A stretch of DNA of 64,000 bases, taken from assembly GCF_018860385.1 (NCBI RefSeq), contig NZ_JAHKPH010000008.1:386080-450079 (forward strand), in the 5' to 3' direction. The notes under the pieces were generated by a model, which saw only the letters and a program-made list of their open reading frames with translations, did no database searches and had not been told where the DNA came from. Both the position numbers and the translations under genes were made by a program. Each line of letters starts with the position of its first letter. The stretch's first letter is position 1. The stretch comes from Reinekea forsetii (GTDB lineage Bacteria; Pseudomonadota; Gammaproteobacteria; Pseudomonadales; Natronospirillaceae). Positions 29,392 through 52,597 of this stretch are shown in pieces.

Positions 29392-32300
29392 ATGAGTTTC
29401 GGTTCAGGATTAAGCGGTGTAGCCGCAGCCAACAAAGACTTAAATATCACCGGTAATAACATCGCCAACGCAAGCACGACCGGCTTTAAAGCCAGTCGAG
29501 CCGAATTTGGCGATGCCTATACCACTTCCATCATGGGCATGGGTCAAGACCCTATTGGTTCCGGTGTTAATGTAACCAATGTCGGGCAAAAATTTGAGCA
29601 AGGTAATATTTCGCAAACCAACTCTGTGCTCGATTTAGCGATCGACGGAAACGGTTTTTTTGTGACCGAGTACCCTAATAATTCAGTGACTTATACACGA
29701 TCAGGTATCTTTCACGTTAATAAGCAAGGCTTTATTGAAAGTAATCAAGGCGCAGTGTTGCAGGGCTATGGTGTAGATCAAAATGGAATTGTAACGGGTA
29801 TTTTGCAAGACTTACGTGTAGATGCTGGTAACCAACCACCCCGTGGTACCCATACTATTGATGCGCGTTTAAATGTACCCGCGGGTGCTCAAGTGTTGCA
29901 ACAAATTGGCTCTACCACTCGCACCAATGGTTTAGCTGTAGGGGTTGCTCAAGTTGGGCCTTCGGATGATGTGACCACCACACTAGATTCAATCAGTTAC
30001 CCAACCACTGCCGGTACGCCTGCGCAAATCGTGGGTGGTGCCATTGGCTTTACAGGAACAACACCGGGTATAAACTTTCCTTGGCAGCCCAATGCTTCAG
30101 AAGCGTCATCTACGTTAGATTTTACACTGCAAGGGCCCAACATAAATGGTGGGTTAAATCCTTTAACCGTTACCATTCAGCCATTCACCGATACCGTAAT
30201 ATATGACGATGTCGATGATTTAGTCTCATCGATCAATGCGAATATCAATGGCGACCCTGATTTAGCGGGCAAAGTTCAAGCGGTAGCGAATAGCTTCGGT
30301 GGTATCACCTTTGAAACTGCAGGCCCTTATGCTACAGATGGCACTGCGATCATTGGCATTGTGAATAACGTGAATAGTTTATCTGATCGTAACTATTTAA
30401 ACTTCGGTTCCCATGGTATTACTTTGGCGGGTGATGCTGCTTCGGGATTAAACATTACAGCAGTCAATACAGGAACCACGCTTACAAGTCGCATTGATTT
30501 AGATTCTCTCGATTCCACAAGCCCATTTTACGATGATCCAACAGTTGCCGGCTCTAATATGGTGTTTAATGCCAATGTCGGTGGCACCGTATACTCGAAT
30601 CAATCTTTTACATATAACCCTGCAGGTTATGCTTCACAAGCGGCGTTTGTTGCAGATTTAAACGCACAAGTAGCGGGTGGTATAGGGACTGAAGGTTCAT
30701 TCCAGTTGAACGCTAACCGATTGGAGTTTGTAGTAACGGCTGGGGGCAGTTTAGGCCCTACCAATGTCTCATTTACGAGCGTCAGTTCAACCACCACCAG
30801 CTCAGTTGGCATGAATGAACTAGGTATGACAGCTAACTCTTCATTCGCGCCGATTCAAACCTTAGGTCAAGTGCAAAACAACCAACTAGATTTCTCGGTT
30901 GATGGTGCTCCTGCAGTGACCGTAACTTTGACAGGGACTAATCACTTAGATGCGGATTCGCTCGTTGCCGATATTAATGCTCAGATTGCTGCCACTTCGG
31001 CAGCGCTTGACGCCGCGGTAACGGCCTATCATGTCGGTGGAGTCCTACATTTTGCAAGAATCGATACTACAGCGGCTGGTGATACTTTAAGTGTAACGTC
31101 GAATTCTGCCACATCGGATACTTACCTAGGAATCAGCTCGACTACGTCCTTGATTACACCTGAGCCTTTCTCTCCGATAGCCGGTACTGACTTATTCGCA
31201 AATAATGGCTTTATAGATTTATCAAGCGATCCAGGCAGTAATGCAACCGTACAAGGTAATAATACCTCTGGACTCACCTTTACTGATTTTGTCCCAGGAA
31301 CAGCAACCGAGCTTACAGGTGCTCCAATACCAGCAGGCGCAATTGCAAATGGCGATGATGGATTGTCGATCAACTTTACTGTAAACCTTGGAGGTGATTC
31401 GCAACCCGGAACGCTCATTGTTCCTGTCGGCGGATGGGCCAACATAGCTGCGCTTGCGACCGATCTTGAAAATGAAATTAACGCACAATATGTGGGTACT
31501 TATGGACCTAATGCGGTAACGATTACCACCAATGCAAGCCGTTTGGTAATAACGTCCAATGATATGGGCATTGGTCCACAAACAATTTCGTTTACACCAT
31601 CGACCTCTACGGCATCTACTTCAGTGGTAAACTTCGGTATTGCTACAACATCGGTGCCTGCACCAACCACGGTGTTAGGTAGTCCAGACGTTCCGTTTGA
31701 TAATCAAATTGAAATTTCTATAGATGGCGGTACTGCACAACGCATTACTATCCCGCAAGGTACCTATACAACGAATAACGAGTTGGTCGACCAGATCAAT
31801 AGCCTGATTGCCTCAAATCCAACGCTTTCGGGTGAAGTCAATGTTTCGCATGTTAACGGACGCCTTATTTTTGAACGTGCCGATACAGGTGCCTTCCCAT
31901 TAGACATTGATGTATCGGGTACAACGGCTTCTCAGGCTAACTTTGGTTTAACCAGTACAACTAAAACCTTAGGTGAAGAGCCAATTGATCGCACCCATTC
32001 ATTCCGTGTGAACTTAGCCGTTCCATTGCCGGATGAAGAAGGGCGCTCGGGTTCAGTGGCCATTTCGTTAGAAGAAAAAATATACTCTGTCGATCAACTT
32101 GCCGCGGCCATTAACCGTGAATTAGCGGCGGTACCAGAAGACGAATACATTGGCGTTAGGGCGGTCGTTGGGCGTGATGCAGACGACAACGAAGTCCTGC
32201 AGTTTATGGCAACAGAAGGCGGCGAAGCGTCACAAATTTCCATTACCAATGTGCAAGCGCCGGGCGATGATTTAGATGTCAACGCGCTGCATGCTTTGCT

Positions 32301-33777
32301 GCAAGCCGACCAATATGAAGCTGAGTTGTTGACTATAGGTGAGCCGGCTATAACCAACGGTTATCCGGAGCAGAGTTTTGTCATTTATGATGAAGAAAAT
32401 GACGAGCGTACAAATGTTACTATCCCAGAAGGAACGCAAGCATCCGAGATTGCCAGTCAATTAAGTTCCTATGCAGGAGTGACCGCAACCGCTGAAACTA
32501 ACCTTACCCTACGCGCCGAAGATTACGTTAACGGTGGCGATATGAATTTATACATAAATGGGCAAGTGATTACTGCAAACGATTTCCAGGGCATAGTGGA
32601 TGAGATTAATTCATACTCTGGAACTTCGCTCAATAGTATCAAGGCCGATCTAAATGCAGATACTGGAAATATTGAAATCACCTCAAGTATCGGTATTGAT
32701 ATCTCAGTTTCTATTGAAACAACCAACGATTTAGATGGTTTGACAATTCAAGGCTACACCAGCACGGCGCCGGTGACTCTAGGGCGAGGCGTGGACGCAG
32801 AAACCAACGCACGCGTGGGCGGCTATGTTGATATCGTATTGAACGAAGGCATTACCATGATCGAGCCAGACCCACGTGTGGCAGGCTTGTTCAATGGTTT
32901 AAACGATGCCAGCTTTGAACCGTTTGTGATTAATGAGTTTGATCCTGACGATCCTGAATCCTACAACGAAACTGCATCGTTAACGGTTTACGATTCGTTA
33001 GGTAACCAGCATCAATTACAAATGTACTACGTGAAAGACCCTGATGACCCGGTGCGTCCACAAGCGTTAAACAGCTGGACGGTATATGCGTTAATTGATG
33101 GTGAGCCAATTGGTGATCCGGATGCGTCATTGCCGTTCCCTCAAAACATTGAGCCAACGCATGCGTCATTTAAACTGCACTTTAATGCCGATGGCACCAT
33201 CGATGAAGAAAACACGGGTGAGTTCTTAATCTCGAATTGGGACCCTGTGGATTCTGAAGGAAATGGAAACGGTGCTTACACATCACTGAATGTGGCAGAA
33301 GGGGGTGTTTCACCCGTACCCGATCCGAACACGAACTCGAACTTTTCGATTTCGTTTGGTGGAACGACACAATACGGTGGTCCTTTTGCTCGTTACGATT
33401 TCCAGCAAGATGGCTATTCAAGTGGCCGACTCAAAGACTTAGAGATCAATGACGACGGAACCATATTCGCACGTTACACCAATGGTGAAGCACAGGTACT
33501 TGGGCAAGTCGCGTTGGCCTCTTTTGCCAACATGGAAGGGTTAACACCTGTTGGCCAAACGGAGTGGCAAGAAAGCTTTGAATCGGGCGATGCCACCATT
33601 GGTGAAGCCGGAACAGGCTTGCTTGGCACATTACGATCGGCCGCACTCGAAGACTCGACCGTCGACTTATCGGAACAACTGGTTCATTTGATCATCGCAC
33701 AACGGAACTACCAAGCCAGTGCGAAGACCATTGAGACAGCGAATGCCGTGACTCAGACGATCATTAATTTGAGGTAG
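29392..33777 (+). CDS. flgE: Flagellar hook protein FlgE, giant variant
   Basis: This 1461-aa hook subunit compares with about 400-460 aa usually. The ends are canonical: N-terminal D0 (FGSGLSGVAAANKDLNITGNNIANASTTGFKASRAEF), the FlgE/F/G core around residues 80-130 (LAIDGNGFFVTE, YTRSGIFHVNKQGFI) and C-terminal D0 (LSEQLVHLIIAQRNYQASAKTIETANAVTQTIINLR). The normal D2 region reappears at about residue 1155 (PDPRVAGLFNGLND, SLTVYDSLGNQHQLQMYYV). About 950 residues between are extra, made of repeated beta-rich modules (starts near 240, 400, 500, 770) resembling Flagellin_IN motifs (VDG, TIPQGTYTTNNELVDQIN, RLIFERAD). They should project outward from the hook surface. Confidence 0.95.
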   Translation: MSFGSGLSGVAAANKDLNITGNNIANASTTGFKASRAEFGDAYTTSIMGMGQDPIGSGVNVTNVGQKFEQGNISQTNSVLDLAIDGNGFFVTEYPNNSVTYTRSGIFHVNKQGFIESNQGAVLQGYGVDQNGIVTGILQDLRVDAGNQPPRGTHTIDARLNVPAGAQVLQQIGSTTRTNGLAVGVAQVGPSDDVTTTLDSISYPTTAGTPAQIVGGAIGFTGTTPGINFPWQPNASEASSTLDFTLQGPNINGGLNPLTVTIQPFTDTVIYDDVDDLVSSINANINGDPDLAGKVQAVANSFGGITFETAGPYATDGTAIIGIVNNVNSLSDRNYLNFGSHGITLAGDAASGLNITAVNTGTTLTSRIDLDSLDSTSPFYDDPTVAGSNMVFNANVGGTVYSNQSFTYNPAGYASQAAFVADLNAQVAGGIGTEGSFQLNANRLEFVVTAGGSLGPTNVSFTSVSSTTTSSVGMNELGMTANSSFAPIQTLGQVQNNQLDFSVDGAPAVTVTLTGTNHLDADSLVADINAQIAATSAALDAAVTAYHVGGVLHFARIDTTAAGDTLSVTSNSATSDTYLGISSTTSLITPEPFSPIAGTDLFANNGFIDLSSDPGSNATVQGNNTSGLTFTDFVPGTATELTGAPIPAGAIANGDDGLSINFTVNLGGDSQPGTLIVPVGGWANIAALATDLENEINAQYVGTYGPNAVTITTNASRLVITSNDMGIGPQTISFTPSTSTASTSVVNFGIATTSVPAPTTVLGSPDVPFDNQIEISIDGGTAQRITIPQGTYTTNNELVDQINSLIASNPTLSGEVNVSHVNGRLIFERADTGAFPLDIDVSGTTASQANFGLTSTTKTLGEEPIDRTHSFRVNLAVPLPDEEGRSGSVAISLEEKIYSVDQLAAAINRELAAVPEDEYIGVRAVVGRDADDNEVLQFMATEGGEASQISITNVQAPGDDLDVNALHALLQADQYEAELLTIGEPAITNGYPEQSFVIYDEENDERTNVTIPEGTQASEIASQLSSYAGVTATAETNLTLRAEDYVNGGDMNLYINGQVITANDFQGIVDEINSYSGTSLNSIKADLNADTGNIEITSSIGIDISVSIETTNDLDGLTIQGYTSTAPVTLGRGVDAETNARVGGYVDIVLNEGITMIEPDPRVAGLFNGLNDASFEPFVINEFDPDDPESYNETASLTVYDSLGNQHQLQMYYVKDPDDPVRPQALNSWTVYALIDGEPIGDPDASLPFPQNIEPTHASFKLHFNADGTIDEENTGEFLISNWDPVDSEGNGNGAYTSLNVAEGGVSPVPDPNTNSNFSISFGGTTQYGGPFARYDFQQDGYSSGRLKDLEINDDGTIFARYTNGEAQVLGQVALASFANMEGLTPVGQTEWQESFESGDATIGEAGTGLLGTLRSAALEDSTVDLSEQLVHLIIAQRNYQASAKTIETANAVTQTIINLR

Positions 33778-33919
33778 TAAAAAGATAGCTGAAAGTTTTT
33801 AGCTGTAAGCTGCTAGTAAGGGCAAGGTTAAAACATAGATTTTGGCTGCGGGCTTTGGGCTGCGGGTTATTAGAAAAACCCAAAAACCAAACCGCTACTG
33901 TTGGTGGTTTAGCCATACT

Positions 33920-39215: not shown

Positions 39216-42200
39216 ATGAGCATACTAGGCACAGCGATTACAGGTTTAAAAGCGCATCAAGAAGCTTTGAAAACGACAGGGCATAACATCAGTAATGCCA
39301 ATACTCCTGGTTATTCACGCCAAGAAGTGGTGATGAGCAGTGCAACACCTTTATATAGAGGTTTTGGTTACGTTGGCCAAGGCGTTAATGTGGACACCGT
39401 TCGCCGCATTGAAAACCAGTTTTTACAAGGGCAATTGAACTCCGATACTTCTGCTTTTAATCACCTACAAACTTACCGTGAGCAGATAGAACAGGTTGAC
39501 CGAATTCTTGCCGACGATAGAACCGGCCTACAGCCCCAGTTAGATAGATACTTTGCCGCCTTACAAGGCGCTGCCGATAACCCTGCGTATGTGCCTTCGC
39601 GTGATGTTGTATTAGGGGAAGCGCAAGGATTAGTTGATAGATTCGAAACCATTAGCCGCTATTTAGCCGATCAAGAAAGTGTCGTTAACAGTCAAATTGA
39701 AGCCGCCGTCGCGCAAGTAAACGCTATAGCGAATGGTATTGCTCAGTTGAATGAAAAAATAGTTACCGCGCAGGGCTCAGCTACATCGGCACCGCCAAAT
39801 GATTTGTACGATAAGCGAGAAGAGTTAGTTCGACAGTTGGCCGAATTTGTAGACATAGATGTAATCGACGTGGGTGCAACCGTTAACATCGCCATCGGCA
39901 ATGGCAACCCTTTGGTCATGAAGTATGAGGCGGCGAAATTAGAAGCAGCGCCTGGGTTACAAGACCCTTTTCGCGTGGGTATTAAATTTGTCAGTAAAGT
40001 GGAAAACGTTGAAATTACGGATTCTTTAAATAAGGGCTCTATCGCTGGCTTCTTAGACTTTAGAGAAGAGGGGTTATCAACGGCCATTAACAGCTTGGGC
40101 AGGCTTGCCGTTGCCTTTACTCAAGAAACCAATAAAACCCATAAATTGGGTGTTGATTTAGAAGGGCGATTTGGAAATGATTTTTTCCAAGACCTTAATG
40201 ACCCTTCTTTAACAACGCGTCGAGTATTTGCGTTTGGTGATAATGCCTTACCCAACGACAACCTATTTAACGTTTACTTTAAAGACAGCGAACAGCTAAC
40301 GACTTCCGACTACACTTTTCATGTGCCGGGCCCTGAAAACAGCCGCTATGAAATTACCCGAAACGATACCGGAGAGGTTATAAAGGAAGGCGGTTTAAGC
40401 AATGAGTATCCACAATCGTTTGAGTTTGATGGACTAGAACTTGTATTAGAAGCCGGAACCTTTTCAGAAGGAGACAGCTTTACCATCGCGCCTCTACGTG
40501 ATGTTGCGCAGCAAATGGAGCTGCTCATTCGTCAACCTTCGGAACTGGCATTAGCTTACCCAATTAAAGCCAATACAAGCCTTAGCAATCAAGGCAGTGG
40601 ATTAATTAATCAAGGCGCAATGTTGAGCCGAGATTCCAATGCATTCGCAGTAGATGGCAAGTTAAGCCCGCCATTATTAGTGCAGTTTGAAAGTGAAAAT
40701 CGATATTCTGTTTTAGATAATTCTGACCCAGGTAACCCAAGACCACTTAGACCGCCAATGGAAAATCTGATGTTCGTTCCTGGCGCTGTCAATACGATTT
40801 TTACTGATGACCCTGGCCAAACCATGGTAAATAGCTGGCGCGCAAGGCTACCTTACCAGCCAACCATTGGTTATGGTGGCCCATCAACAGCATCACTTAA
40901 TAATGGTATTAACCCAGAGCGTTTTACTTTTTATCAAACAGACCCTGTGACCGGCAAAGAAACGGCTTTACCAACCATATCGACACCCGGCAGTGCGAGC
41001 GCAAAAGATATTGTGCAGGAATTAAATTTGGTTGAGGGGGTAGAGGCGCGCGCCTATACCGAAGTGCAGTTGGCTAATTTCACCAATTCAGGTACACCCT
41101 ACGACCCCGACAACCCTTTTGAAATTTGGGTCAACGGCAAAGAGATCACACAAACGCTCACTAGTTTGAATCAAACAACATATATGGAAGGCTACCCTGA
41201 AGAAGTGCCTGAAGAAATGGGTCCTAACTTTTTAGCCGACCGTATTAATCATCATTACGAGCTGCAGCAAATGGGTATTCGTGCAAAAAGTGATGGTGAA
41301 ACGCTGACCATTATTGATGAAAGCGGAAACGATATTTTAGTTGAGATGCGTGGTGACAAACCTCAGCCGGTGATCACCGGTGCGCCGATATTGCCGCCAG
41401 GCATTCCAGCCAATGTAAATGCCTACATAGACCCTGGTGATACCTTCATGTTGTCTACGGGTGAGCAATGGTCCGTGGATGTTGTTCAAGGAGACACTCA
41501 AGGGAAAATAAGTAATTTAACGGGTTATGATTTTTCGAGTGATGGTCCTTATGAATTTAAAATGTACTTACCCGATGGCCGTACAGGCTATGTCGAGCTA
41601 ACCGGTAATCACGCAACGGGTGAAGATGTAAAAGCTGAATTAGCCGCAAAAATTCAAGCGCAGTTAGATAGCCCGGGTTACGTTAAAGCCGAAATTGATG
41701 AGCGTGGAAATTTTAGTTATCAAATTTTTATGAGTGTTGAAGGTACTGGTAATAACGATGTATCTCGGGTGAATGTTGGTGGGCAAGTTGATATCACCAT
41801 GGCCGATGGCATTCGATTAAAAACCGACCCAACCGTAGGCGGCATTTTTAATGGAACTCCAGAAGCTAAATCAACCTACATGGGGTTTCAATTTGAAATC
41901 AGTGGACGACCCGTCGCTGGAGATGAATTCGCCATAGGCTGGAATGAAAACGGCGTGTCTGATAACCGAAATGCCCTAGACCTTGTTGCTATTGAAACAA
42001 CTGATACCGTTAATGTAGAAGATGGCGGAATGACACTGACTGAAAGTTACAGTCAAACCGTAGAGCAAATAGGGACGCTGACCAGCCAAGCGCAAATTCG
42101 AAGCGATTCAGCAAAAGCCGTATTAGACAAAACCACCGAAGAGCTTACCGATATTAAAGGCGTAAACCTAGATGAAGAAGCCGCAAGATTAATTGAGTTT

Positions 42201-42278
42201 CAAGCCGCGTATAACGCTAATGCGAAAGTAATTTCGATAGCGCAGGAATTGTTTGATTCATTGTTAGCGGCGTTTTAG
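39216..42278 (+). CDS. flgK: Flagellar hook-filament junction protein 1 FlgK, giant variant
   Basis: This 1020-aa protein compares with about 550-680 aa usually. N-terminal D0/D1 is canonical (MSILGTAITGLKAHQEALKTTGHNISNANTPGYSRQEV, then DRILADDRTGLQPQLDRYFAALQGAADNPAYVPSRDVVL). So is C-terminal D0 (GVNLDEEAARLIEFQAAYNANAKVISIAQELFDSLLAAF). The central part, about residues 350-900, is enlarged by beta-rich domains (DSEQLTTSDYTFHVPGPENSRYEITRND, FEIWVNGKEITQTLTSLNQ, PYEFKMYLPDGRTGYVEL). The extra mass should face the solvent at the hook-filament junction, matching the other enlarged parts. Confidence 0.95.
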   Translation: MSILGTAITGLKAHQEALKTTGHNISNANTPGYSRQEVVMSSATPLYRGFGYVGQGVNVDTVRRIENQFLQGQLNSDTSAFNHLQTYREQIEQVDRILADDRTGLQPQLDRYFAALQGAADNPAYVPSRDVVLGEAQGLVDRFETISRYLADQESVVNSQIEAAVAQVNAIANGIAQLNEKIVTAQGSATSAPPNDLYDKREELVRQLAEFVDIDVIDVGATVNIAIGNGNPLVMKYEAAKLEAAPGLQDPFRVGIKFVSKVENVEITDSLNKGSIAGFLDFREEGLSTAINSLGRLAVAFTQETNKTHKLGVDLEGRFGNDFFQDLNDPSLTTRRVFAFGDNALPNDNLFNVYFKDSEQLTTSDYTFHVPGPENSRYEITRNDTGEVIKEGGLSNEYPQSFEFDGLELVLEAGTFSEGDSFTIAPLRDVAQQMELLIRQPSELALAYPIKANTSLSNQGSGLINQGAMLSRDSNAFAVDGKLSPPLLVQFESENRYSVLDNSDPGNPRPLRPPMENLMFVPGAVNTIFTDDPGQTMVNSWRARLPYQPTIGYGGPSTASLNNGINPERFTFYQTDPVTGKETALPTISTPGSASAKDIVQELNLVEGVEARAYTEVQLANFTNSGTPYDPDNPFEIWVNGKEITQTLTSLNQTTYMEGYPEEVPEEMGPNFLADRINHHYELQQMGIRAKSDGETLTIIDESGNDILVEMRGDKPQPVITGAPILPPGIPANVNAYIDPGDTFMLSTGEQWSVDVVQGDTQGKISNLTGYDFSSDGPYEFKMYLPDGRTGYVELTGNHATGEDVKAELAAKIQAQLDSPGYVKAEIDERGNFSYQIFMSVEGTGNNDVSRVNVGGQVDITMADGIRLKTDPTVGGIFNGTPEAKSTYMGFQFEISGRPVAGDEFAIGWNENGVSDNRNALDLVAIETTDTVNVEDGGMTLTESYSQTVEQIGTLTSQAQIRSDSAKAVLDKTTEELTDIKGVNLDEEAARLIEFQAAYNANAKVISIAQELFDSLLAAF

Positions 42279-42575: not shown

Positions 42576-43832
42576 ATGGCCGATAGAGTTTCCAGTTACT
42601 GGATCTACCAACGCCCTGTAAACGATATGATGACGCTGCAAGCGAATCTGAACCGTACACAGGAACAGTTGAGCACGGGCAAAAAACTTTTATCACCTTC
42701 GGATGATCCAGTAGGTGCTGCTCGTGTGTTGCAGCTCGATCAAGAAATTGCTTTGCTCGACCAATATGAACGCAACATTACCCTGCTCGATTCTCGTTTA
42801 GAAGCCGAAGAAAGTGTGTTAAACGGCATTACCAGTACCATTCAACGAGTACGCGAGTTAACCGTGCAAGCTGGTAACGCTGCTGTTTATAGTACCTCTG
42901 AGCGTATCGCCATTGGCGAAGAAATTAGTCAGCGCGTCAAAGAGATGTACGATCTCATGAACAGTAAAGATGGCGGTGGCGAATACATTTTCTCTGGCTT
43001 TGCGGGTGATCAACAGCCGTTTGTGAAAAATCCTGGTGGCGGATACAGCTATCAGGGCGATGAAGGCGTTCGGTTTTTACAAATCAGCCGGTCTATTACC
43101 ATAGCATCGAGCGACAGCGGTAAAGACGCTTTTTTAGACGTCGATGCCAATGTGCCTTCTTTTTTTACGTCGGCCAGTTCTGAAAACCGGGGCAACCCGC
43201 CTGCGGTTATTTCTGCCGGTATCACCGTAGATCAAGAAGCCTTGAACGACTTCTTCCCAGAAAACGCGGTCATTACTTTTAACAATGAACTCGACGTAGA
43301 TCCACCTGGCCCTAATTACACCATTCGGCAAAAATCGGATGGTCGGCCAGTCGATACTTTCGAAAATGTCCCCTATACGCCCGGTGCGTCCATTCAATTT
43401 AAAGGTATTAATGTCAATGTAACTGGAAAGCCTTACCCTGGTGATAAATTCGTAATTGAAACGTCACCGAAACAAGGTTTGTTAGTCACCACTGAAAAAT
43501 TAGAATACGCACTGAATAACTTCAGTGATGCACCAGAATTCAGTGACGCCTATGACGAGGCTATATTCAACACACTCGAAAATTTAGACGCCGCCTTAGA
43601 AAAAGTAGCGCTTGTGCGCGCAAGAATTGGTTCAAGGCTGAATACCACCGAAACCACCATGAACCAGCACGCCGATAACAAATTGGCCGCGCAAGATATT
43701 CGTTCAAGCATTCGAGATTTAGATTACGCAGAAGCCATCAGCCGACTACAGCTGGAAGAATTTGTATTACAAGCCTCACAACAAACCTTCGCCAAAGTCA
43801 CCTCGCAGAGTTTGTTTGACTTCATCCGCTAA
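42576..43832 (+). CDS. flgL: Flagellar hook-filament junction protein 3 FlgL
   Basis: This 418-aa protein is modestly larger than the usual 300-420 aa range. The N-terminal flagellin-like D0/D1 is VSSYWIYQRPVNDMMTLQANLNRTQEQLSTGKKLLSPSDDPVGAARVLQLDQEI. The C-terminal helix is ARIGSRLNTTETTMNQHADNKLAAQDIRSSIRDLDYAEAISRLQLEEFVLQASQQTFAKVTSQSLFDFIR. The middle, about residues 140-310, is a beta-rich insert. A 6-bp hairpin with GAA loop (CTAACC-GAA-GGTTAG) overlaps its stop. Confidence 0.96.
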   Translation: MADRVSSYWIYQRPVNDMMTLQANLNRTQEQLSTGKKLLSPSDDPVGAARVLQLDQEIALLDQYERNITLLDSRLEAEESVLNGITSTIQRVRELTVQAGNAAVYSTSERIAIGEEISQRVKEMYDLMNSKDGGGEYIFSGFAGDQQPFVKNPGGGYSYQGDEGVRFLQISRSITIASSDSGKDAFLDVDANVPSFFTSASSENRGNPPAVISAGITVDQEALNDFFPENAVITFNNELDVDPPGPNYTIRQKSDGRPVDTFENVPYTPGASIQFKGINVNVTGKPYPGDKFVIETSPKQGLLVTTEKLEYALNNFSDAPEFSDAYDEAIFNTLENLDAALEKVALVRARIGSRLNTTETTMNQHADNKLAAQDIRSSIRDLDYAEAISRLQLEEFVLQASQQTFAKVTSQSLFDFIR

Positions 43833-43983: not shown

Positions 43984-44277
43984 ATGCCCACCCTCAAACA
44001 ACTCGATACCGCCTTCAACGACCTATGGCTCCACACTGAACAACTTCCAACATTATTAGATAAATGGCAAGAAATGGTCAGCGAACACCTTTCAACCCTG
44101 GGCGACACTAAAGAAGACTTAGACGCTTTCGAAGAACGCATGAATTTTTGGCACTCTGTACTAGAAGAAAACCGCAGCCTAATCCAAGCCCATCAAGCCA
44201 CGTTGAAAGAAACCATCAAAACGGGTGAGCCAAGCCCTAAGAAAGATGAGCAGACGCGGGCTTATAGGAAGAATTAA
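43984..44277 (+). CDS. Small helical protein between flgL and fliC (hypothetical)
   Basis: The start is ATG 43984 after GAGG; the frame continues upstream to 43762 but there overlaps flgL and the repeats. The 97-aa product is entirely helical and heptad-rich (MPTLKQLDTAFNDLWLHT, LLDKWQEMVSEHLSTLG, LDAFEERMNFWHSVLEENRSLIQAH) with a basic tail. The size, helicity and position suggest an export chaperone of FlgN/FliT type or a filament accessory protein. No family was recognised, so the role is conjecture. Confidence 0.65.
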   Translation: MPTLKQLDTAFNDLWLHTEQLPTLLDKWQEMVSEHLSTLGDTKEDLDAFEERMNFWHSVLEENRSLIQAHQATLKETIKTGEPSPKKDEQTRAYRKN

Positions 44278-44700
44278 AGAAAGCTGCAAGTTTTGAGCTG
44301 CAAGCTGCAAGTAAGATCAAAAATAAAAATATCCTGTTTCGTAACTCTTTTTGTAGGAGTCATCGGAACGCAGTGGAGAAGCGACAAGAGAGAAGGTAGC
44401 TGCAAGTTTTGAGCTGCATGCTGCAAGTAAGTTCAAAAACCAAAATATCTTGTTTCGTAACTCTTTTTGTTGGAGTCATCTGAACGCAGTGGAGAGGCGA
44501 CAAGAGAGAAGATAGCTGCATGTTTTAAGCTGCAAGCTGCAAGAAAGTTCAAAAACCAAAATATCTTGTTTCGTAACTCTTTTTGTAGGAGTCTTCGGAA
44601 CGTAGTGGAGAGGCGACAGGTGAGAAGATAGCTGCAAGTTTTAAGCTGCAAGAAAAGTTTAAAGGAGGTTTTAGCAGCAAGTTGCAAGAAAAAGGAGTAA
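44278..44700. repeat. Tandem array of a 116-bp composite repeat between the 97-aa gene and fliC
   Basis: There are three units, with GTAGGAG-type boxes at 44352, 44468 and 44584 (exactly 116 bp apart), and a partial fourth start near 44630. Each unit joins AGCTGCAAG-TTTTGAGCTGC-AAGCTGCAAG, a TTTCGTAACTCTTTTTGT linker and a half REP (TGTAGGAGTCATCGGAACG and AGTGGAG.GGCGACA). Units differ by a few substitutions, for example GTAGGAG to GTTGGAG in unit 2. No real coding frame crosses it. Confidence 0.9.
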
Positions 44701-44989: not shown

Positions 44990-47455
44990 ATGCCTCAAAT
45001 TATTAATAGTAACATCGCTTCGTTAACGGCTCAGCGTAACCTAAACAGTTCGCAGAGCGCTAACTCTACTGCCTTAGAGCGTTTGTCATCTGGTCTTCGT
45101 ATTAACAGTGCGAAAGACGATGCGGCGGGCTTGGCAATTTCTACTAAATTCGAATCTCAGGTTAAAGGCTTGAACGTCGCCATCCGTAACGCGGGTGATG
45201 GTATCTCTCTAGCGCAAACCGCTGAAGGTGCCCTAGGCGCAATGACTGAAAACCTACAACGTATTCGTGAGCTTGCGGTTCAGTCTTCTAACGCAACTAA
45301 CTCAGACGATGACCGAGTTGCACTTCAGCAAGAAGTTCAGCAGTTAATGGCTGAAGTGACGCGTACAGCTGAAGAGACTAACTTCAACGGCCGTAACCTG
45401 TTAGATGGTTCTTTTGAAGGAACATTCCAGATTGGTTCTAACGCCGGTAACACTGTTGAAGTGAAAATCAGTGAGTTAACTGCAGACAAATTAGGCTCAA
45501 GTGCTCAAGCTGGTGTTAGTGCTTCTGGCAACTCTTCGCAGTTAGGAAATGGTGATTTAGTCATAAATGGAGAGTCAATTAGGGCCTCTGTTTCTGGTGA
45601 TGATACGCTTTCCTTTGAAGGTAAAGAGTATTCAGGTATATCAAAAGCCGCAGCGATCAATTCTGTCTCTGATCAAACTGGTGTTGTTGCCACGGTAGAT
45701 GAGAACATTGTTCTTGGTTCAGATATGGCAACTTCAACCGCAACAGGTTCAGCGGCTGCTGCTGCAACTATATCGTTGAACGGAGTCTCAATTGATATCG
45801 AAGGTACTGATAATGCTGATGATTCGGCAAAGGCAGCAACTCGAGGATCTGTAATTGAATCAATAAACGCTAAATCCGAGCAAACAGGTGTTGTTGCTAG
45901 CGATGGCGGTAATGACGGCGGCGTAATCTTAACTGCTTCAGATGGCCGAAATATTACTGTGACTAGTGCAGCAACGAATAACCTGAGTGTTTATGGTTTG
46001 GCAGATTCAGATACGGCTGGTACAGCTGCAGTTCAATCTCAAGCAGGCTTTACGTTGACGTCTAAAAACTCAAGTATTGATATCGAGATTTCAGGCGGTA
46101 ACGGAACTGGTAATGGTGATATTACTAACTCTGGTTTAACTGCAGGTACTTATACCGCGCAAACTGCCGCTACTTCGAGCACCAAGCAAGAAGTAAATGG
46201 TGTAGATGGTGCTTGGGTAACGGTTAATACAACTAATGGTACAGCCGCATTATTGACTGCTGCTGCTACCGCGGGTAGTTTAACAATTGGTACAGCAGCA
46301 GGAGATACGTTAGCTGATCTTCAAGCTGCATTCGATGACGCTGGGTTTGACGTAACGGTTGCTGCAGATACACAGGAAGGTATAGCCGTTGCCGTGAACG
46401 AAGCAAAAGCTTCAGAAAAAAGAATTGGTGATGGTGATTTAGTTATCAATGGTGTAGCGATCAAGGCATCTTCAAGTTTAGACGATACGGCCTCTGATAC
46501 TACTGCAGGCTCTTCAGATGGTGCTGCCTCTGCTATCGCAATTGCAGCAACAATTAATAAGGCTTCAGGTGATACAGGTGTTACTGCAGAGGTAAACGCT
46601 ACTGAAGTGGTTGGTGGCGCTAAAAATGCATTAGGTCTTGTTGAATCAGACGGCACCGCAGGTGTTCTTGGGACTGATGTTGTTGCCGGAGCTAGTATTC
46701 AGTTGACAGTTAACGGGGTGAATGTCTCGTTAGTGGAAACAGAAGACTATGAAAAAAATAAAGCGGGAGCTATTACAGCTATTAACGAAGTATCAGGCCA
46801 AACTGGCGTGATAGCCACTGACAATGGTGAAACATTGACATTAACTGCAGCGGATGGTCGAAATATATCGTTGTTTGCTGATTCGGCCGATGCAGGTGAG
46901 TCGTTGATAGATCTAAATACTCATATCAACAACTTTGGTTTAAGCGCAGATAATGTTGGCCAAAATACAGGTACTACAGGCGTTAAAGCATTTACATATG
47001 CAAGTGGTGCGGAAACAACATATGGTACAGTGACCCTTTCATCTGCTAAGTCTTTTGATGTGAGTTTCGGTACTGCTGGTGCTCAAGCTCTAGAAGACTC
47101 TGGTTTAACAGCTGGCACTTTTGGTGGTGGTCAAGATGGAACATTCTTAAAAGATGTTGATATCTCTACTTTCCAGGGCGCTCAGGATGCTATTACAGCA
47201 ATTGATAATGCGCTAAGCACAGTAACTAGCCAGCGTGCAGAGCTCGGTGCATTGCAAAACCGTTTCGAGTCTACCAGCTCAAACCTTCAGATTACTTCTG
47301 AAAACTTGTCCGCTGCAAACTCTCGAATCCGTGATGCGGACTTCGCAGCCGAAACGGCCGAACTGTCTCGTACCCAGGTACTACAGCAGGCCGGTATTTC
47401 GATCTTGGCTCAGGCTAACCAGCGTCCACAGCAGGTATTATCACTACTCGGTTAA
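44990..47455 (+). CDS. fliC: Flagellin FliC, enlarged with internal duplication
   Basis: This 821-aa filament subunit compares with about 280-500 aa usually. N-terminal D0/D1 is canonical (IINSNIASLTAQRNLNSSQSANSTALERLSSGLRINSAKDDAAGLAIS). So is C-terminal D1/D0 (LQITSENLSAANSRIRDADFAAETAELSRTQVLQQAGISILAQANQRPQQVLSLLG). Residues about 186-730 form a large variable D2/D3 region. It contains two related blocks starting GDLVINGESIRAS (near 187) and GDLVINGVAIKAS (near 481). Each block has an INSVSDQTGVVA/INEVSGQTGVIA-type Flagellin_IN motif and a (S/A)DGRNI(T/S) turn. A sigma-28-type promoter precedes it. Confidence 0.96.
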   Translation: MPQIINSNIASLTAQRNLNSSQSANSTALERLSSGLRINSAKDDAAGLAISTKFESQVKGLNVAIRNAGDGISLAQTAEGALGAMTENLQRIRELAVQSSNATNSDDDRVALQQEVQQLMAEVTRTAEETNFNGRNLLDGSFEGTFQIGSNAGNTVEVKISELTADKLGSSAQAGVSASGNSSQLGNGDLVINGESIRASVSGDDTLSFEGKEYSGISKAAAINSVSDQTGVVATVDENIVLGSDMATSTATGSAAAAATISLNGVSIDIEGTDNADDSAKAATRGSVIESINAKSEQTGVVASDGGNDGGVILTASDGRNITVTSAATNNLSVYGLADSDTAGTAAVQSQAGFTLTSKNSSIDIEISGGNGTGNGDITNSGLTAGTYTAQTAATSSTKQEVNGVDGAWVTVNTTNGTAALLTAAATAGSLTIGTAAGDTLADLQAAFDDAGFDVTVAADTQEGIAVAVNEAKASEKRIGDGDLVINGVAIKASSSLDDTASDTTAGSSDGAASAIAIAATINKASGDTGVTAEVNATEVVGGAKNALGLVESDGTAGVLGTDVVAGASIQLTVNGVNVSLVETEDYEKNKAGAITAINEVSGQTGVIATDNGETLTLTAADGRNISLFADSADAGESLIDLNTHINNFGLSADNVGQNTGTTGVKAFTYASGAETTYGTVTLSSAKSFDVSFGTAGAQALEDSGLTAGTFGGGQDGTFLKDVDISTFQGAQDAITAIDNALSTVTSQRAELGALQNRFESTSSNLQITSENLSAANSRIRDADFAAETAELSRTQVLQQAGISILAQANQRPQQVLSLLG

Positions 47456-47558: not shown

Positions 47559-47969
47559 ATGAATGAAATTAGTATGCAGCCAACGCTAAATGCTAAGCCT
47601 TCCGCACCAACGCGCGACACTGGAAAGTCGGGGTTTAATGGAATAGAGCCCACGGTAGAGCAAGCGGAAGCACGCCAGGCCGAGAAAAGTGACTCAGTAA
47701 CTTCATATGCATCACAGCAAAAAGAAGCCACCGAGAAACCTAAAGAAGAAAACGTTGAGCAAGCTGTAGCGAAACTTAACGATTATGTTCAAAACACAGA
47801 GCGCAAGCTTGAGTTTCAGCTAGATGAAGATTCTGGCAAAACGGTGATAAGAGTTTACGATAAAGTATCAGATGAGTTGATTCGTCAGATGCCGAATGAA
47901 GAAGCCTTAGAACTGGCTCAACGCTTAAGTCAAGAAGAGCCGCTGATGTTGTTTAGTGCGCAGGTCTGA
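47559..47969 (+). CDS. flaG: FlaG family flagellar protein
   Basis: This 136-aa protein has a disordered, charged N-terminal half (about residues 1-68). The FlaG domain follows: VAKLNDYVQNTERKLEFQLDEDSGKTVIRVYDKVSDELIRQMPNEEALELAQRL. FlaG proteins affect filament length in polar flagellates such as Pseudomonas and Vibrio. The ribosome-binding site is GGAGG about 10 bp upstream. It sits between fliC and fliD, the usual place. A strong terminator follows. Confidence 0.92.
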   Translation: MNEISMQPTLNAKPSAPTRDTGKSGFNGIEPTVEQAEARQAEKSDSVTSYASQQKEATEKPKEENVEQAVAKLNDYVQNTERKLEFQLDEDSGKTVIRVYDKVSDELIRQMPNEEALELAQRLSQEEPLMLFSAQV

Positions 47970-47971
47970 TA

Positions 47972-47999: not shown

Positions 48000-48059
48000 T
48001 TTTGGGCTTCGGGCTTCGAGCTTCGGGTTTGAACCTAAAACTTAAAACCTACAAGCTAA

Positions 48060-48407
48060 TTATGTGCTCTCGGTGAGCGATCTTGAAAGGCCTGTTAACA
48101 TTCTTGATATAATATCTAATTGATTGATCCATTTCGTACCTAATTCTTTGTCTAAATAATTTACCTTCTGACCAATCCATATTTGTGTTTTAAGTTCAGC
48201 TGCTGAACTATAGGCAATGTTTAAAAATCGTTTCTTTTCTGAAGAACTCGTTCGGGACATGCCTTCGGCGATATTCGAAGGGATAGACAGGCCGGATCGG
48301 GTTGCTTGGTCTTTAAAGCCCCAGTCCCTTAAATCCTTTAATTCTATGTATAATTCGGCACTCAATTGAGCAGAAGCTTTCCAAACGTCTAGCTTTTCAA
48401 AATTCAT
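48060..48407 (-). CDS. Four-helix-bundle protein (23S rRNA intervening-sequence protein family)
   Basis: This 115-aa protein is of the S23/IVP family, with the signature NFEKLDVWKASAQLSAELY, the RDWGFKDQATRSGLSIPSNIAEGMSR turn, SSSEKKRFLNIAYSSAAELKTQIWIG and a final long helix. Members were first found inside 23S rRNA intervening sequences but many are free-standing, including next to retron- or DGR-like elements. Here it lies alone on the minus strand between flaG and fliD, bounded by repeat-rich spacers. The function is unknown; it is presumably a recent insertion. Confidence 0.9.
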   Translation of the reverse strand: MNFEKLDVWKASAQLSAELYIELKDLRDWGFKDQATRSGLSIPSNIAEGMSRTSSSEKKRFLNIAYSSAAELKTQIWIGQKVNYLDKELGTKWINQLDIISRMLTGLSRSLTEST

Positions 48408-48500
48408 ATAATCATCCTTGATTAGTTTTTCAGAATCTAAACGTTACAGGAGTTTTGAAACCTTGAACGTAAACTGAGTCACAGGGTGGGGATAGTTTTG

Positions 48501-48560
48501 AGCGGCGGGCTATGGGCTGCGGGTATCAATCTTTAAACCAGAAGCTCGCAGCCCGCAGCC
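48501..48560. repeat. GCTGCGGGC inverted-repeat hairpin before the fliD promoter
   Basis: AGCGGCGGGCTATGGGCTGC followed by GGGT (48501-48524) faces GCTCGCAGCCCGCAGCC (48544-48560), pairing over GGGCTGCGGG/CCCGCAGCC-type arms. It is the same arm family as in the flgE-flgF and flgK-flgL spacers. It ends 32 bp before the sigma-28 -35 element. Confidence 0.75.
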
Positions 48561-48592
48561 AAAAACTGCTCTCCAAAACCCCTAAAGTTTTA

Positions 48593-48609
48593 ACCAAATC
48601 GGCCGATAC
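48593..48609 (+). promoter_or_regulatory. Sigma-28 (FliA) promoter of fliD
   Basis: TAAAGTTT begins at 48593 and GCCGATAC spans 48602-48609 on the next line of sequence; the TAAA-to-GCCGATA spacing is about 15 bp as in the enterobacterial FliA consensus (TAAAGTTT-N11-GCCGATAA). It is the best sigma-28 match in the window, about 80 bp before the fliD start. The exact -10 coordinate may be off by a few bases. Confidence 0.8.
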
Positions 48610-48691
48610 AATAATCAACCCATGGTCTATCCTAAAATCATGGTTTGGTTTTTGCATTAAGACACTGTTCAACGTTTAAAGGTTATCGGTT

Positions 48692-51600
48692 ATGGCGGGC
48701 ATACAATCACTGGGTATCGGTTCTGGGTTGCTAACTTCAGACTTAGTCGATCAATTAGTGGCTGCGGAAAGGGCGGCAAGTGATCTCCGTTTGGATTCAA
48801 AAACGGCCCGTGTTGAGGCGAAAATTTCCGCTTATGCTGAAGTTCGAACAGTGATGGATGGCTTGCAATCTAGTATTGGAAGCCTTGCCCAAGCCAGTAC
48901 TATTCAGAGTAGTTCAGCCAGTTCTTCCGATGAATCTGTGCTTACTGCAACCACCTCTAGCCTTGCCGAACCAGGTTCTTACCGTATCGAGGTAGATGAA
49001 ATCGCTAAAGCGCACTCATTGGCGAGTATGCAATTCAGTTCCGTGGATGACACGGTGGGTACGGGCACGTTAACCTTTAAGTTTGGTACCACCACCTATG
49101 ACGGTTCTGATGAATATTTAGCGTTTGAGCAAGATGCCGACAGTGCAGTAACCTCTATTGATATTACATCTGAAAATAACACCTTAGGCGGCATACGTGA
49201 TGCCATCAATAATGAAGACTTTGGTGTGTCGGCTTCAGTGGTGTACGACGGTACGGGTTACCGGTTGTTGTTAACCAGTGAAGAGACGGGTGAAGAAACC
49301 AGTATGGAAATTCAAGTCTCGGGTGATGCTGGCTTGCAATCTTTAGCGTATAACAGTGCTCAGCATGATCCTGCCAGTAACATGACCGAAACACAATCGG
49401 GTTCGGATGCACTGATACGAATCAACGGGCTAACCGTTACAAGTGCAACGAATAAATTGGATCAGGTTGTGCGCGGCGTGACCATTAACCTCAATGAAAG
49501 CAGTTTAACGGGTGTCATGCTAAACGTAACCCGTGATACCGATGAAATTGCCGATAAGCTTGAAGGGTTCGTCGAAAAGTATAATGAGTACAAAACCATT
49601 TACGATGAACTAACCAAATACAATCCAGATGATGAAATTGGCGGTATTTTGTTAGGTGATAACGTATTGCGTACCGTGCAATCACAATTGCGTGCGGGTA
49701 TCACTGAAATTATTTCTGGTGTTACAGGCTCTACCTATAAATCACTTATTGAAATTGGCATCAGTACCGACCAAAACGATAATTTTAATTTAAAATTTGA
49801 TCGAGCTGAATTCAAAAAAGCGATGGAAACCGACGCTCAAAGTTTGGTTGGGTTACTCGCTACCGATAACCAAACATCGGATGCTCAAGTTAAAGTAGTC
49901 AACGTGGGTCCAAATACCAAGCCTGGCACCTATGATGTTAATGTTACTCAAGTTGCCACACAGGGCACTTTTAAAGGTCTAACAACACCGGCGTTAAGTT
50001 TTGCAAGCGATGTTGTGGTATCGGATGTAAACGATGAGTTCTCTATGACGGTAGACGGAAAAACGCAATCCGTAACGTTAGAGCAGGGAACTTACAGCAC
50101 CGGTGAAGATTTAGCCTTGATGCTGCAAAACAGTATTAACAGTGCATTTAGTGGTCAAAGCGTGACGGTTACTTTTGATGATGCTAACGATCGCTTTGAT
50201 ATAACTTCAAGCAAGTTTGGCAGCAGTTCAGAAGTTACCATTGGCTCGGGTGATGCGCTTGTAGCAAATACTTTTGGCTTTGCCAGTTCCGGCACCGGCC
50301 AATTTGCAGGTAGCTTTTTTAATACCTTAAATGATGCGGCTTTTGCAGCGTCTACCAACCCAGGTACGCAAGCCTTTACCGGTGAATCGGGAGCCGATTT
50401 TTCGGCTAGTCCTGTAACGTTTGATTTAACACTGGCGGGTACAACGGCTGATGGAACCTATGCAATATCATTGGATGAGAACTGGGCCGACGTAGTCGAT
50501 ACCGATGGAAACATTACTACCGATAGAGATCGTTCTGATGTGTTAACTTACATTCAAAGCGAACTTAACAATGCTGGTTTAGCGGGAGTCGTGACGGCTG
50601 AATTTAATAGCAGTGATCGGCTGGTCATGCGTACGGAGCCAACCGCTGGTACTAGCCAAACCATCACCGTAGCGAATACCAATGTGACCGGTTTTGATTA
50701 TTTAGGCATCACCGATGGTGCAAACAGCTCAGGGTTTGCCATGTCTGGCGCCGACTTTGAATTGGCTTATTCCAATCGTCAGGGCAGTGTCAGTGGCGCA
50801 GCGCCGATTAGTGTACCTGCAGGTACCTATGAAACCGCAGAAGAATTAGCTACGGCAATAGAAACCGCTATTAATGCCGATGCAAACATTAGCGCTGGAG
50901 CAAAAGGTGCGGCTACAGAAGCAGGGTCTAGAAGCTTAGCCAGCGCTGTAGATTTTACCAGCGATCCTGCCCAGTTTGAATTTGATCTAAACGGGACTAA
51001 CTTCGTTGTAGATGTTAACGCAAACGGCGCCAATAACCTTGCCAGCATTCAAAGTGCACTGGATACCGCATTGGCCGCCGGTGGAGCGAGTGCAGGTGAT
51101 GTTGTTGCGAGTTTAGACAGCAATGGGCTGGTACTCACAACCAATGCAACTGGATCTGCACAAACGCTCGAAATTAAACGAGATGGCATTGGAGCAACCA
51201 CCAATGCGGGTACGGCCGATTTATCTACAGGTGTCGATTTTTCATTGACACCTGCGGCCTTTACCTTGGCTGTTGATGGCATCGATATAGAAGTAACCGT
51301 TGATGGTGATGGTACCGCTAACAGCAACGATGGTGAATCTAACCTTGCGGTGATACAAAGTGCCTTAGATACCGCCTTAACAGCGGCTGGCGGAGGCGGT
51401 GAATTCCAAGCTGGCGATGTAGTGGCTAAGCTCAATGCCAGTAATCAAGTGTACTTCGAAACCGTGTCAAAAAACGGTGTGCAAACTGAAGCGACATTTG
51501 GCGCGGATGCGACTATCCAAATCACGGCGGCAGATGCCAACGCTAACTCAACATTGGGTATTACTAACGGCGCACTCAATATTAATGGCTTAGACGGCTT

Positions 51601-52597
51601 TGGTTTAGATAAAGGTGTGTATAACGGTTTTGATTCGCAAAGTACCGTCAGCTACGAAAAAGATGAAGACGGCAAAGGCCGTTTTGTTATTGCATTCGAT
51701 AACAGCACTAATATCACTATCAGCAACCCATCGGTTTCTGCTATTGCTCAATTAGGCCTTTCTGCTACCAACCAAAGCACGGCCGACACAGCAACCGGAG
51801 TTGATGTTGAAGGTACAATTAACGGCGTAGCAGCCACTGGTCGCGGCCAATACTTAACCGCCTCTGAAGGCAACTCGGCTGCAACAAACGGCTATTTGCT
51901 GGGTGGAACAGGTTCCGATTTTTCAAGCGCTGAAATTATAGACGGTACTAATAACACCTTAAAGGTTGTGATTGATGGAACAGAATCGGGCACTATTACA
52001 TTGGCCTCAGGTGCTTATGCCTCAGGTAATGAATTAGCCGCTGAGCTTAAAGCACAAATTAACGCCGATGCAACGCTTAAAGGCGCAAATAAAGCTGTAG
52101 ATGTGCAATACGATGCTGACACCAATACCTTTGGTATTTTTTCAGTATCTAAGGGTTCCGAGTCGACCGTAAAAGTAAGTGAAATCGCTTCGGGTGCAAT
52201 TGATATTTTTGGTTTCACAACAACGACACAAGGTGTCAAAGGTAAAGACACCCAAGGCTCAGTAGATGAGGCCGCGGGACTCATGCTTAAAATCGGCGGC
52301 ACACGAACAGGCGACAGAGGCACCGTAACCTATGTGCAAGGGGTCATGTCAAAGTTAGATGAATTGTTTGACAGCATGTTGTCATCAAAAGGATTATTAA
52401 CTGAAAAAGAAAGTAACCTAGTCGATGACCAAGAAGCAATAGAAGCCGAACGCAAAGAGATTGATGAAAAAACATCAGTGTTTGAAGCCAGGTTAAGAGC
52501 AAAGTTTTTATTTAACGATAAATTAATCAGCTCACTTAAAGTGACAGAAGATTTCTTGAAGAGCCAATTTGAAGCGATGAATGCTTCGAAAGAATAA
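48692..52597 (+). CDS. fliD: Flagellar filament capping protein FliD, giant variant
   Basis: This 1301-aa cap protein compares with about 450-700 aa usually. The N-terminal FliD_N is GIQSLGIGSGLLTSDLVDQLVAAERAASDLRLDSKTARVEAKISAYAEVRTVMDGLQ. The classic FliD core follows (KLDQVVRGVTINLNESS, then DEIADKLEGFVEKYNEY). The C-terminal coiled coil is LLTEKESNLVDDQEAIEAERKEIDEKTSVFEARLRAKFLFNDKLISSLKVTEDFLKSQF. In between, residues about 400-1180 hold at least four Flagellin_IN-like modules (starts near 447, 758, 853 and 1087). It is normally followed by fliS; here a convergent nuclease gene follows instead. Confidence 0.95.
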   Translation: MAGIQSLGIGSGLLTSDLVDQLVAAERAASDLRLDSKTARVEAKISAYAEVRTVMDGLQSSIGSLAQASTIQSSSASSSDESVLTATTSSLAEPGSYRIEVDEIAKAHSLASMQFSSVDDTVGTGTLTFKFGTTTYDGSDEYLAFEQDADSAVTSIDITSENNTLGGIRDAINNEDFGVSASVVYDGTGYRLLLTSEETGEETSMEIQVSGDAGLQSLAYNSAQHDPASNMTETQSGSDALIRINGLTVTSATNKLDQVVRGVTINLNESSLTGVMLNVTRDTDEIADKLEGFVEKYNEYKTIYDELTKYNPDDEIGGILLGDNVLRTVQSQLRAGITEIISGVTGSTYKSLIEIGISTDQNDNFNLKFDRAEFKKAMETDAQSLVGLLATDNQTSDAQVKVVNVGPNTKPGTYDVNVTQVATQGTFKGLTTPALSFASDVVVSDVNDEFSMTVDGKTQSVTLEQGTYSTGEDLALMLQNSINSAFSGQSVTVTFDDANDRFDITSSKFGSSSEVTIGSGDALVANTFGFASSGTGQFAGSFFNTLNDAAFAASTNPGTQAFTGESGADFSASPVTFDLTLAGTTADGTYAISLDENWADVVDTDGNITTDRDRSDVLTYIQSELNNAGLAGVVTAEFNSSDRLVMRTEPTAGTSQTITVANTNVTGFDYLGITDGANSSGFAMSGADFELAYSNRQGSVSGAAPISVPAGTYETAEELATAIETAINADANISAGAKGAATEAGSRSLASAVDFTSDPAQFEFDLNGTNFVVDVNANGANNLASIQSALDTALAAGGASAGDVVASLDSNGLVLTTNATGSAQTLEIKRDGIGATTNAGTADLSTGVDFSLTPAAFTLAVDGIDIEVTVDGDGTANSNDGESNLAVIQSALDTALTAAGGGGEFQAGDVVAKLNASNQVYFETVSKNGVQTEATFGADATIQITAADANANSTLGITNGALNINGLDGFGLDKGVYNGFDSQSTVSYEKDEDGKGRFVIAFDNSTNITISNPSVSAIAQLGLSATNQSTADTATGVDVEGTINGVAATGRGQYLTASEGNSAATNGYLLGGTGSDFSSAEIIDGTNNTLKVVIDGTESGTITLASGAYASGNELAAELKAQINADATLKGANKAVDVQYDADTNTFGIFSVSKGSESTVKVSEIASGAIDIFGFTTTTQGVKGKDTQGSVDEAAGLMLKIGGTRTGDRGTVTYVQGVMSKLDELFDSMLSSKGLLTEKESNLVDDQEAIEAERKEIDEKTSVFEARLRAKFLFNDKLISSLKVTEDFLKSQFEAMNASKE

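Follow-up and report, generated by a model that had tools for sequence, protein, structure and literature searches.

We analysed the flagellar locus of Reinekea forsetii in a stretch of 64,000 nucleotides (contig NZ_JAHKPH010000008.1, positions 386,080 to 450,079; hereafter the window, in whose coordinates all features are given), which comes from a genome of 3.42 Mb in 21 contigs. In this locus the hook protein FlgE, the junction protein FlgK, the flagellin FliC and the filament cap protein FliD are all greatly enlarged. Judged from their sequences, the proteins that form hook, junction and cap in this lineage are shown to have grown in whole-domain steps, with domains that they share and with lengths that covary. 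The window's flagellin, by the evidence of profile comparison, grew separately, via its own internal duplication.

A sequence-only reading of the window had drawn attention to the lengths of these four proteins and to the intactness of their D0/D1 ends, and on both counts, as well as in the placement of the frames, it proved right. All four are intact frames on the plus strand: flgE (29392..33777) encodes 1461 aa, flgK (39216..42278) 1020 aa, fliC (44990..47455) 821 aa and fliD (48692..52597) 1301 aa. Pfam places conserved ends on both sides of every enlarged middle. These are residues 6-33 and 83-140, then 1177-1342 and 1416-1460 in FlgE, with the insert lying at about residues 141-1176 between D1 and D2; residues 6-33, 92-324 and 350-426, then 982-1017 in FlgK; residues 5-141, then 735-820 in FliC; and residues 11-108 and 237-394 plus a second FliD_C stretch in FliD.

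The four proteins also pass as members of their families. FlgE scored above cut-off with PF00460, PF22692, PF07559 and PF06429, and reached 434.5 bits with the hook protein model NF004238 (cut-off 400). FlgK passed as hook-associated protein 1 (HAP1; TIGR02492, 334.9 bits against a cut-off of 170.75). Both FliD, as HAP2 (FliD_N PF02465, 80.4 bits; FliD_C PF07195, 112.4 bits), and FliC, as a bacterial flagellin (Flagellin_N PF00669, 151.7 bits; Flagellin_C PF00700, 96.2 bits), exceeded their Pfam cut-offs; the best NCBIfam equivalog for FliD (241.7 of 387) and the best NCBIfam models for FliC stayed under theirs.

Domains shared by FlgE, FlgK and FliD

According to profile matches, FlgE, FlgK and FliD carry a common module of ~90 aa, present in the window in 6, 1 and 7 copies, respectively. 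Comparison of insert profiles revealed repeats inside FlgE and inside FliD, and similarity between the repeats of the two proteins (probability 98.5). Pairwise BLAST of the inserts gave best E-values of 1e-6 for FlgE and FliD and 1e-8 for FlgE and FlgK. A hidden Markov model (HMM) of the module, built out from one FliD repeat over the fetched genomes, settled at 87 positions; it replaced an earlier HMM that, without length control, had drifted to 311 positions. It found 334 matches in the fetched genomes (FlgE 125, FlgK 25, FliC 11, FliD 173); their FlgL, FlgG, FlgF and FlgI gave none, nor did reversed decoys at E < 1e-3. The whole genome of the window contained 13 matches at E ≤ 0.01 (FlgE 6, FlgK 1, FliD 6), with no match elsewhere in that genome at the same threshold.

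The six FlgE copies lie at residues 237-318 (30100..30345), 386-480 (30547..30831), 495-583 (30874..31140), 657-752 (31360..31647), 770-855 (31699..31956) and 866-955 (31987..32256), and the single FlgK copy at residues 775-855 (41538..41780). Those of FliD occupy residues 148-216 (49133..49339; a copy present also in the 567-aa FliD of genome G150), 444-532 (50021..50287), 570-675 (50399..50716), 698-736 (50783..50899; a partial match), 755-835 (50954..51196), 852-959 (51245..51568) and 1084-1177 (51941..52222), all on the plus strand.

Protein length rises with the number of modules, n. FliD length equals 440 + 124n (r 0.999, 27 genomes) and FlgE length 666 + 127n (r 0.965, 29 genomes), r values that overstate independence because few families contribute to them. 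A ladder of 130 FliD proteins, in which the module counts are lower bounds taken from among the matches listed, gave the same picture. No module was listed in the FliD frame of any of the 85 genomes with FliD below 630 aa (one of these, G107, has two matches whose places are not listed); one module was found in 23 of 25 proteins of 630-760 aa, at least 1-2 in 4/4 of 760-900 aa, at least 2-3 in 4/4 of 900-1000 aa, and at least 2-6 in 12/12 above 1000 aa.

A second domain, which we named EK in this analysis, is common to FlgE (residues 985-1112, 32344..32727, plus strand; with a weak module match at residues 1033-1118, E 0.047) and FlgK (residues 559-715, 40890..41360, plus strand), with an hhalign probability of 99.1. 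We trained an EK HMM on the window's family only, and counted its matches outside that family (loci L091, L092 and L095 excluded). EK was present in 15 of 15 FlgK proteins of at least 860 aa and in 0 of 70 shorter ones; for FlgE the counts were 0/53 below 600 aa, 9/14 at 600-750 aa and 7/7 at 860 aa or more. It was found in 2 of 29 FliC proteins, and in none of 69 FlgL and 25 FliD. In the fetched families FlgK of 888-925 aa has EK without the module and FlgK of 991-1030 aa has both, while FlgE of ~680 aa often has EK and longer FlgE has EK plus modules.

FliC of the window has no module match. Self-comparison of its family alignment with hhalign detected an internal duplication (probability 99.9) between residues 178-392 (45521..46165, plus strand), perhaps the published DE region, and residues 472-715 (46403..47134, plus strand); BLAST of the single window sequence did not see it.

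Identity of the module with PF07196 (Flagellin_IN) is not supported: searched at E ≤ 1, none of 30 module copies matched this family, though HMMER filters drop most weak matches. By eye, the two presumably have a similar motif around 'IN', and PF07196 itself came just under cut-off in FliC at residues 220-239 (21 of 22.7 bits). Separately, the module bears a weak likeness, not significant in structure, to tail-sheath proteins of phages (DUF3383, Mu sheath) and to phage tail parts: 3 of the 30 module members matched DUF3383 (best E 6.5e-5; the first member was under cut-off), and profile matches in PDB had E ≥ 0.11.

Lengths among relatives and across the order

We compared 22 genomes of the window's family (f1). 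FlgK frames are 1005-1032 aa in all 21 genomes with a match (open-frame lengths of 1026 and 1025 aa were used for G008 and G015; the first-ATG rule gave 953 and 790). FlgE frames are 1222-1593 aa in 19 genomes, or 1214-1587 aa by first ATG; the gene of G016 is split over two contigs and G013 has no long frame listed. FliD frames measure 1293-1340 aa in 18 of 19 genomes, the 19th (804 aa) running off its contig by coordinates, and the main FliC frames 748-1248 aa in 18, the copy of G014 being cut by a contig end.

For the survey of the order, 194 genomes were drawn evenly from it; lengths were taken for 138, and for all four proteins in 94. Lengths came from among the matches listed, with FliC as the longest flagellin listed, and G130, G109, G179, G065, G031 and G161 were removed as truncated or unclear. 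Spearman values between the four lengths were 0.61-0.89. Independent contrasts on a single-gene UvrB tree (131 tips, 94-127 used per pair) were 0.75 for FlgE-FlgK, 0.58 for FlgE-FliD, 0.48 for FlgE-FliC, 0.42 for FlgK-FliD, 0.30 for FlgK-FliC and 0.27 for FliC-FliD, with p ≤ 0.0065 for all six pairs. The lengths thus covary across species, also after phylogenetic correction, and the sequence-only reading, which staked its case on such covariation, came through this comparison.

With thresholds set after seeing the data (at least 1100 aa for FlgE and FliD, 980 for FlgK and 700 for FliC), all four proteins are giant in 12 of the 94 genomes, which belong to three families (six in f1, five in f38 and one in f9). 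Lengths of both FlgE and FliD are available for 117 genomes; FlgE reaches 1100 aa in 12 of them, and these are exactly the 12 in which FliD does so.

Explanations of the joint enlargement

The best explanation overall, which we hold with moderate confidence, is that growth by whole domains produced a thick outer shell of the hook and junction, which carries a thick filament. One module is repeated inside FlgE and FliD and occurs once in FlgK, and a second domain is common to FlgE and FlgK. The extra domains would build a second shell around the hook and the junction; the hook and the FlgK ring would thereby match a filament of ~30 nm, make the joint stiffer and transmit torque to the heavy filament. 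The FliD modules might make the cap plate wider where it covers the end of the broad filament, though this is the weakest step, the role of the FliD modules being the least certain. Direct stacking of the FlgK ring on the hook would account for the domain common to FlgE and FlgK and for their covariation, the closest of all pairs. We further propose, tentatively and rather expecting it to fail than to hold, that a single kit of outer domains serves hook, junction and cap alike, that EK makes the hook and the junction ring one continuous outer shell, and that thickness changes in evolution as successive rings gain the same parts. If so, the presence of EK in FlgE and FlgK would predict which flagella have a double-walled hook.

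The module is predicted to be a small outer-domain unit with the order beta-beta-alpha-beta-beta-beta. A similar strand-strand-helix-strand-strand-strand order recurs several times in the model of the FlgE insert. Among the 25 best rows of a Foldseek search with the single-module model, all with weak E-values, 16 were flagellar by title and two more probably so (rows repeat entries, and some are phage tail proteins). The flagellar rows include FliD of Serratia, E. coli, Pseudomonas and Helicobacter, FliC of Pseudomonas and Vibrio, the Campylobacter junction-cap and Helicobacter FlgE2. Published work also favours this explanation: a Salmonella hook is thickened to 25.1 nm by a domain pair inserted in its protein (PMC5069557), and the filaments of Bermanella and Oleibacter measure at least 30 nm (PMC6248924).

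Among members of the family, the inserts of FlgK and FliD show roughly the same degree of conservation as the cores (47-71% per 50-residue block), and so does FlgE 851-1180 (60-71%); the variable parts are FlgE ~350-750 and FliC ~200-700. The description of the enlarged middles as decoration is right only in part, since the inserts of FlgK and FliD are of fixed length and conserved like the cores. Each of the seven modules in the window's FliD is matched by an f38 module in the equivalent position (32-56% identity), which makes these FliD duplications older than the split of f1 and f38. For FliD there is no sign that modules were recently copied from gene to gene within a genome, as the positional counterparts in f38 score above the copies in other proteins.

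A number of observations weigh against our favoured explanation. FlgL (HAP3; 42576..43832, plus strand; 418 aa by its frame and family model, without module match) is of ordinary size though sited between FlgK and the filament, a point the sequence-only reading had missed. FliC of f1 has no module match except for three copies in G011, so the f1 filament did not grow by the shared module. Large FlgK occurs without large FliD in f14 (medians 1155 and 454 aa); in f39 the medians are 944 aa for FlgE, 1008 for FlgK and 517 for FliD, and G148 has FlgE of 1054 aa beside FliD of 492 aa. A broader sample with names, made up of the best 80 FlgK matches less loci L095, L167, L154 and L139, gave correlations of 0.65 (n 63) for FlgE-FlgK and 0.06 (n 17) for FlgK-FliD, and the intended controls gave, against FlgE and FlgK, respectively, 0.34 and 0.35 for FlgG, 0.29 and 0.32 for FlgL, and -0.26 and -0.23 for FlgI. 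Rank-based contrasts were weaker (0.20-0.55; FliC-FliD p 0.049), and without the three giant families FliC-FliD dropped to 0.18 (p 0.05). Compared with f38, only module 6 of FlgE has a clear counterpart and modules 1-5 do not line up; these may be younger or faster evolving. The model of the FlgE insert (residues 130-1190, five alignment rows) is poor, with a mean predicted local distance difference test (pLDDT) score of 45, and that of the single module (19 rows) moderate, with a pLDDT of 69; the best Foldseek match overall was a virus capsid protein (E 0.03), and none reached E ≤ 0.001. Finally, the thick Salmonella-Campylobacter chimeric hook, with which motility is nearly normal (PMC5069557), shows that a hook can thicken without obliging other parts to enlarge.

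Comparisons within families, too, speak against tight coupling. In the 17 family genomes used (G014 excluded, its FliC being cut by a contig end), the coefficient of variation of length was 0.7% for FlgK, 0.4% for FliD, 9% for FlgE and 17% for FliC. Only FlgE and FlgK correlated (0.57, p 0.017), and FliC, at 726 to 1243 aa, showed no significant correlation with FlgE, FlgK or FliD. A second genome of the same species (G038) has FlgE, FlgK and FliD 99.7, 99.8 and 99.0% identical to those of the window beside a FliC of 737 aa, against 821, with 71% identity and a strongly different middle. Similarly, in family f44 FliC is 699 or ~1190 aa, the longer form with four modules, and FlgE, FlgK and FliD differ by few residues. 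Joint enlargement and covariation across species are supported, but the idea of parts that had grown together to stay compatible is too strong for FliC; FlgL has not grown.

Lineage inertia, by which a few ancestral enlargements arose in the same clades for unrelated reasons and were inherited, leaving the sizes of hook, junction and cap without a functional link, is unlikely, if by no means far-fetched. All-four giants come from three families only. In a tree of FlgK cores (leaving out L039 and L047, whose first-ATG FlgK lengths are unreliable) f1 and f38 fall into a single clade (support 0.86) with f9 placed elsewhere, and for this reason there may have been only two origins; in the UvrB tree f1 and f38 stay apart (support 0.37). 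Also in favour are the near-constancy of FlgK and FliD within f1 and the lack of a significant correlation of FliC with the others there. Against inertia, contrasts that allow for shared ancestry stay positive: without the three giant families they are 0.69 for FlgE-FlgK, 0.32 for FlgE-FliD, 0.44 for FlgE-FliC, 0.28 for FlgK-FliD and 0.24 for FlgK-FliC. The domain that FlgE and FlgK share, and that neither has when short, likewise speaks against inertia.

Less probable still is that the added domains form surfaces that are adhesive or face phages, each selected singly, with thickness as a by-product: FliC would be under phage or grazer pressure, and FliD and FlgE would act as adhesins. The hypervariable FliC middle within the species, next to the near-identity of the other three proteins, would suit this, as would the variability of FlgE ~350-750 and the composition of the inserts, which are acidic, cysteine-free and rich in S, T, G and N. 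The core-like conservation of the FlgK and FliD inserts, however, is unlike that of exposed targets under diversifying pressure, and the confinement of the module within the window's genome, at E ≤ 0.01, to three flagellar proteins likewise speaks against it. Frames fused by annotation or assembly error, which the sequence-only reading had allowed for should orthologues be of normal size, are a practically negligible explanation and, for assembly, an excluded one, because similar lengths recur in 18-21 family genomes, and FlgE, FlgK and FliD are equally long in the window's genome and in the second one of the species.

The locus and its closest known systems

The order of flagellar genes in the window is flgB-C-D-E-F-G-H-I-J-K-L, a small frame, fliC, flaG and fliD, with flaG (47559..47969, plus strand; frame and Pfam match) encoding 136 aa. 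The lengths of FlgB, C, D, F, G, H, I and J are ordinary; frame lengths and family matches bear out the sequence-only reading, which had called FlgB, C, F, G, H, I and J normal. The small frame between flgL and fliC (43984-44277, 98 codons including stop) shares 47% identity over 83 aa with a frame that follows flgL in Reinekea blandensis; the longer frame containing it has no Pfam match, and it possibly encodes an export chaperone. The window contains six copies of a 21-bp motif, with 0-3 mismatches (33932, 36669, 42369, 44364, 44480 and 44596), always in gaps between flagellar genes, while 100 shuffles contained none; before fliC the motif sits inside three tandem copies with a 116-bp period (44277-44650). 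It looks like a repetitive extragenic palindromic (REP)-type intergenic element. Directly downstream of fliD, on the minus strand, is an ExeM/NucH-type extracellular nuclease with a lamin-tail domain (52753-55350).

Away from the main locus, 12 of the 22 family genomes (G001, G002, G003, G004, G005, G009, G010, G011, G012, G016, G017 and G019, the last with two) have an extra short flagellin-like frame of 256-291 aa, whose match begins at profile position 8-20; none is listed for the window's genome. Genome G077 of the order survey has, among the matches listed, nine further matches to FlgE_D2 (PF07559); these lie in frames of 522-1017 aa, some holding two, on contigs C16, C129 and C135 and not on the contig of the hook gene.

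The thick hook of Campylobacter jejuni is one close parallel. Its FlgE, called one of the longest, has 865 aa with D3 and D4 inside D2 (PMC5069557), and thus likewise bears a large insert in the D2 region, with a thicker hook such as is predicted here; the FlgE proteins of the window's family have 1214-1587 aa. The consulted passages of that article describe no domain shared with FlgK or FliD, unlike the window. C. jejuni FliD has an extra D4 domain distant from the cap cavity (PMC12221982) and resembles the window's FliD as a cap protein with an added outer domain, but it has one such domain, against six modules beyond the one found in short FliD. Scaling from Salmonella at equal density, with background values for the lengths of Salmonella FlgE and the Caulobacter protein, we estimate ~34 nm for a hook of 1461 aa and 31 nm for a filament of 821 aa. 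Applied to the Campylobacter hook, this scaling yields 26.4 nm against a measured 25.9, but for Caulobacter only 21.8 nm against 24.5.

Close systems, too, are the giant flagellins of marine Gammaproteobacteria, and the relation to them drawn by the sequence-only reading is supported. Bermanella marisrubri and Oleibacter marinus have filaments of at least 30 nm compared with 24 nm (Thomson et al. 2018, PMC6248924); the equal-density estimate for the published giant flagellins is 34.5 and 37.2 nm. These Oceanospirillales belong to the same broad group as the window's organism, and in both the flagellin middle is enlarged by internal duplication; the two halves of the window FliC duplication, seen in the family profile, may correspond to the two tandem DE regions of the published proteins. 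At 821 aa (and 737 in the second genome of the species) the window's flagellin falls short of the published 'giant' class of more than 1000 aa, while other family members reach 1243. The published lengths of 1020 and 1190 aa also occur in f38 genomes, which have giant FlgE, FlgK and FliD; from these lengths and a metagenome-assembled genome labelled Bermanella (L094) in the same FlgK clade, we infer that f38 includes the published species.

Thomson et al. close by asking whether other flagellar components are correspondingly large, and also leave it as a question how common this is; in their main text FliD is absent and FlgE occurs once, in a file title. Among the rows listed in our search of the literature, seen by title and abstract opening and with most subscription journals outside it, none described FlgE, FlgK and FliD as jointly enlarged. 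As far as sequence goes, the first part of the 2018 question is answered for hook, junction and cap; FlgL is spared, as in the window are the rod and rings, and the domains behind the growth are named. Thickness can now be divided into testable parts, namely the domain that sets hook width, the contacts of FlgE and FlgK via their shared domain and the reason for cap growth, and FlgK of at least 860 aa is a rule of thumb for spotting such flagella in genomes. What is new, on the profile evidence, is how the proteins grew, by domains common to FlgE, FlgK and FliD: the published DE model matched annotated flagellins only (PMC6248924), whereas the module described here sits in the hook, junction and cap proteins.

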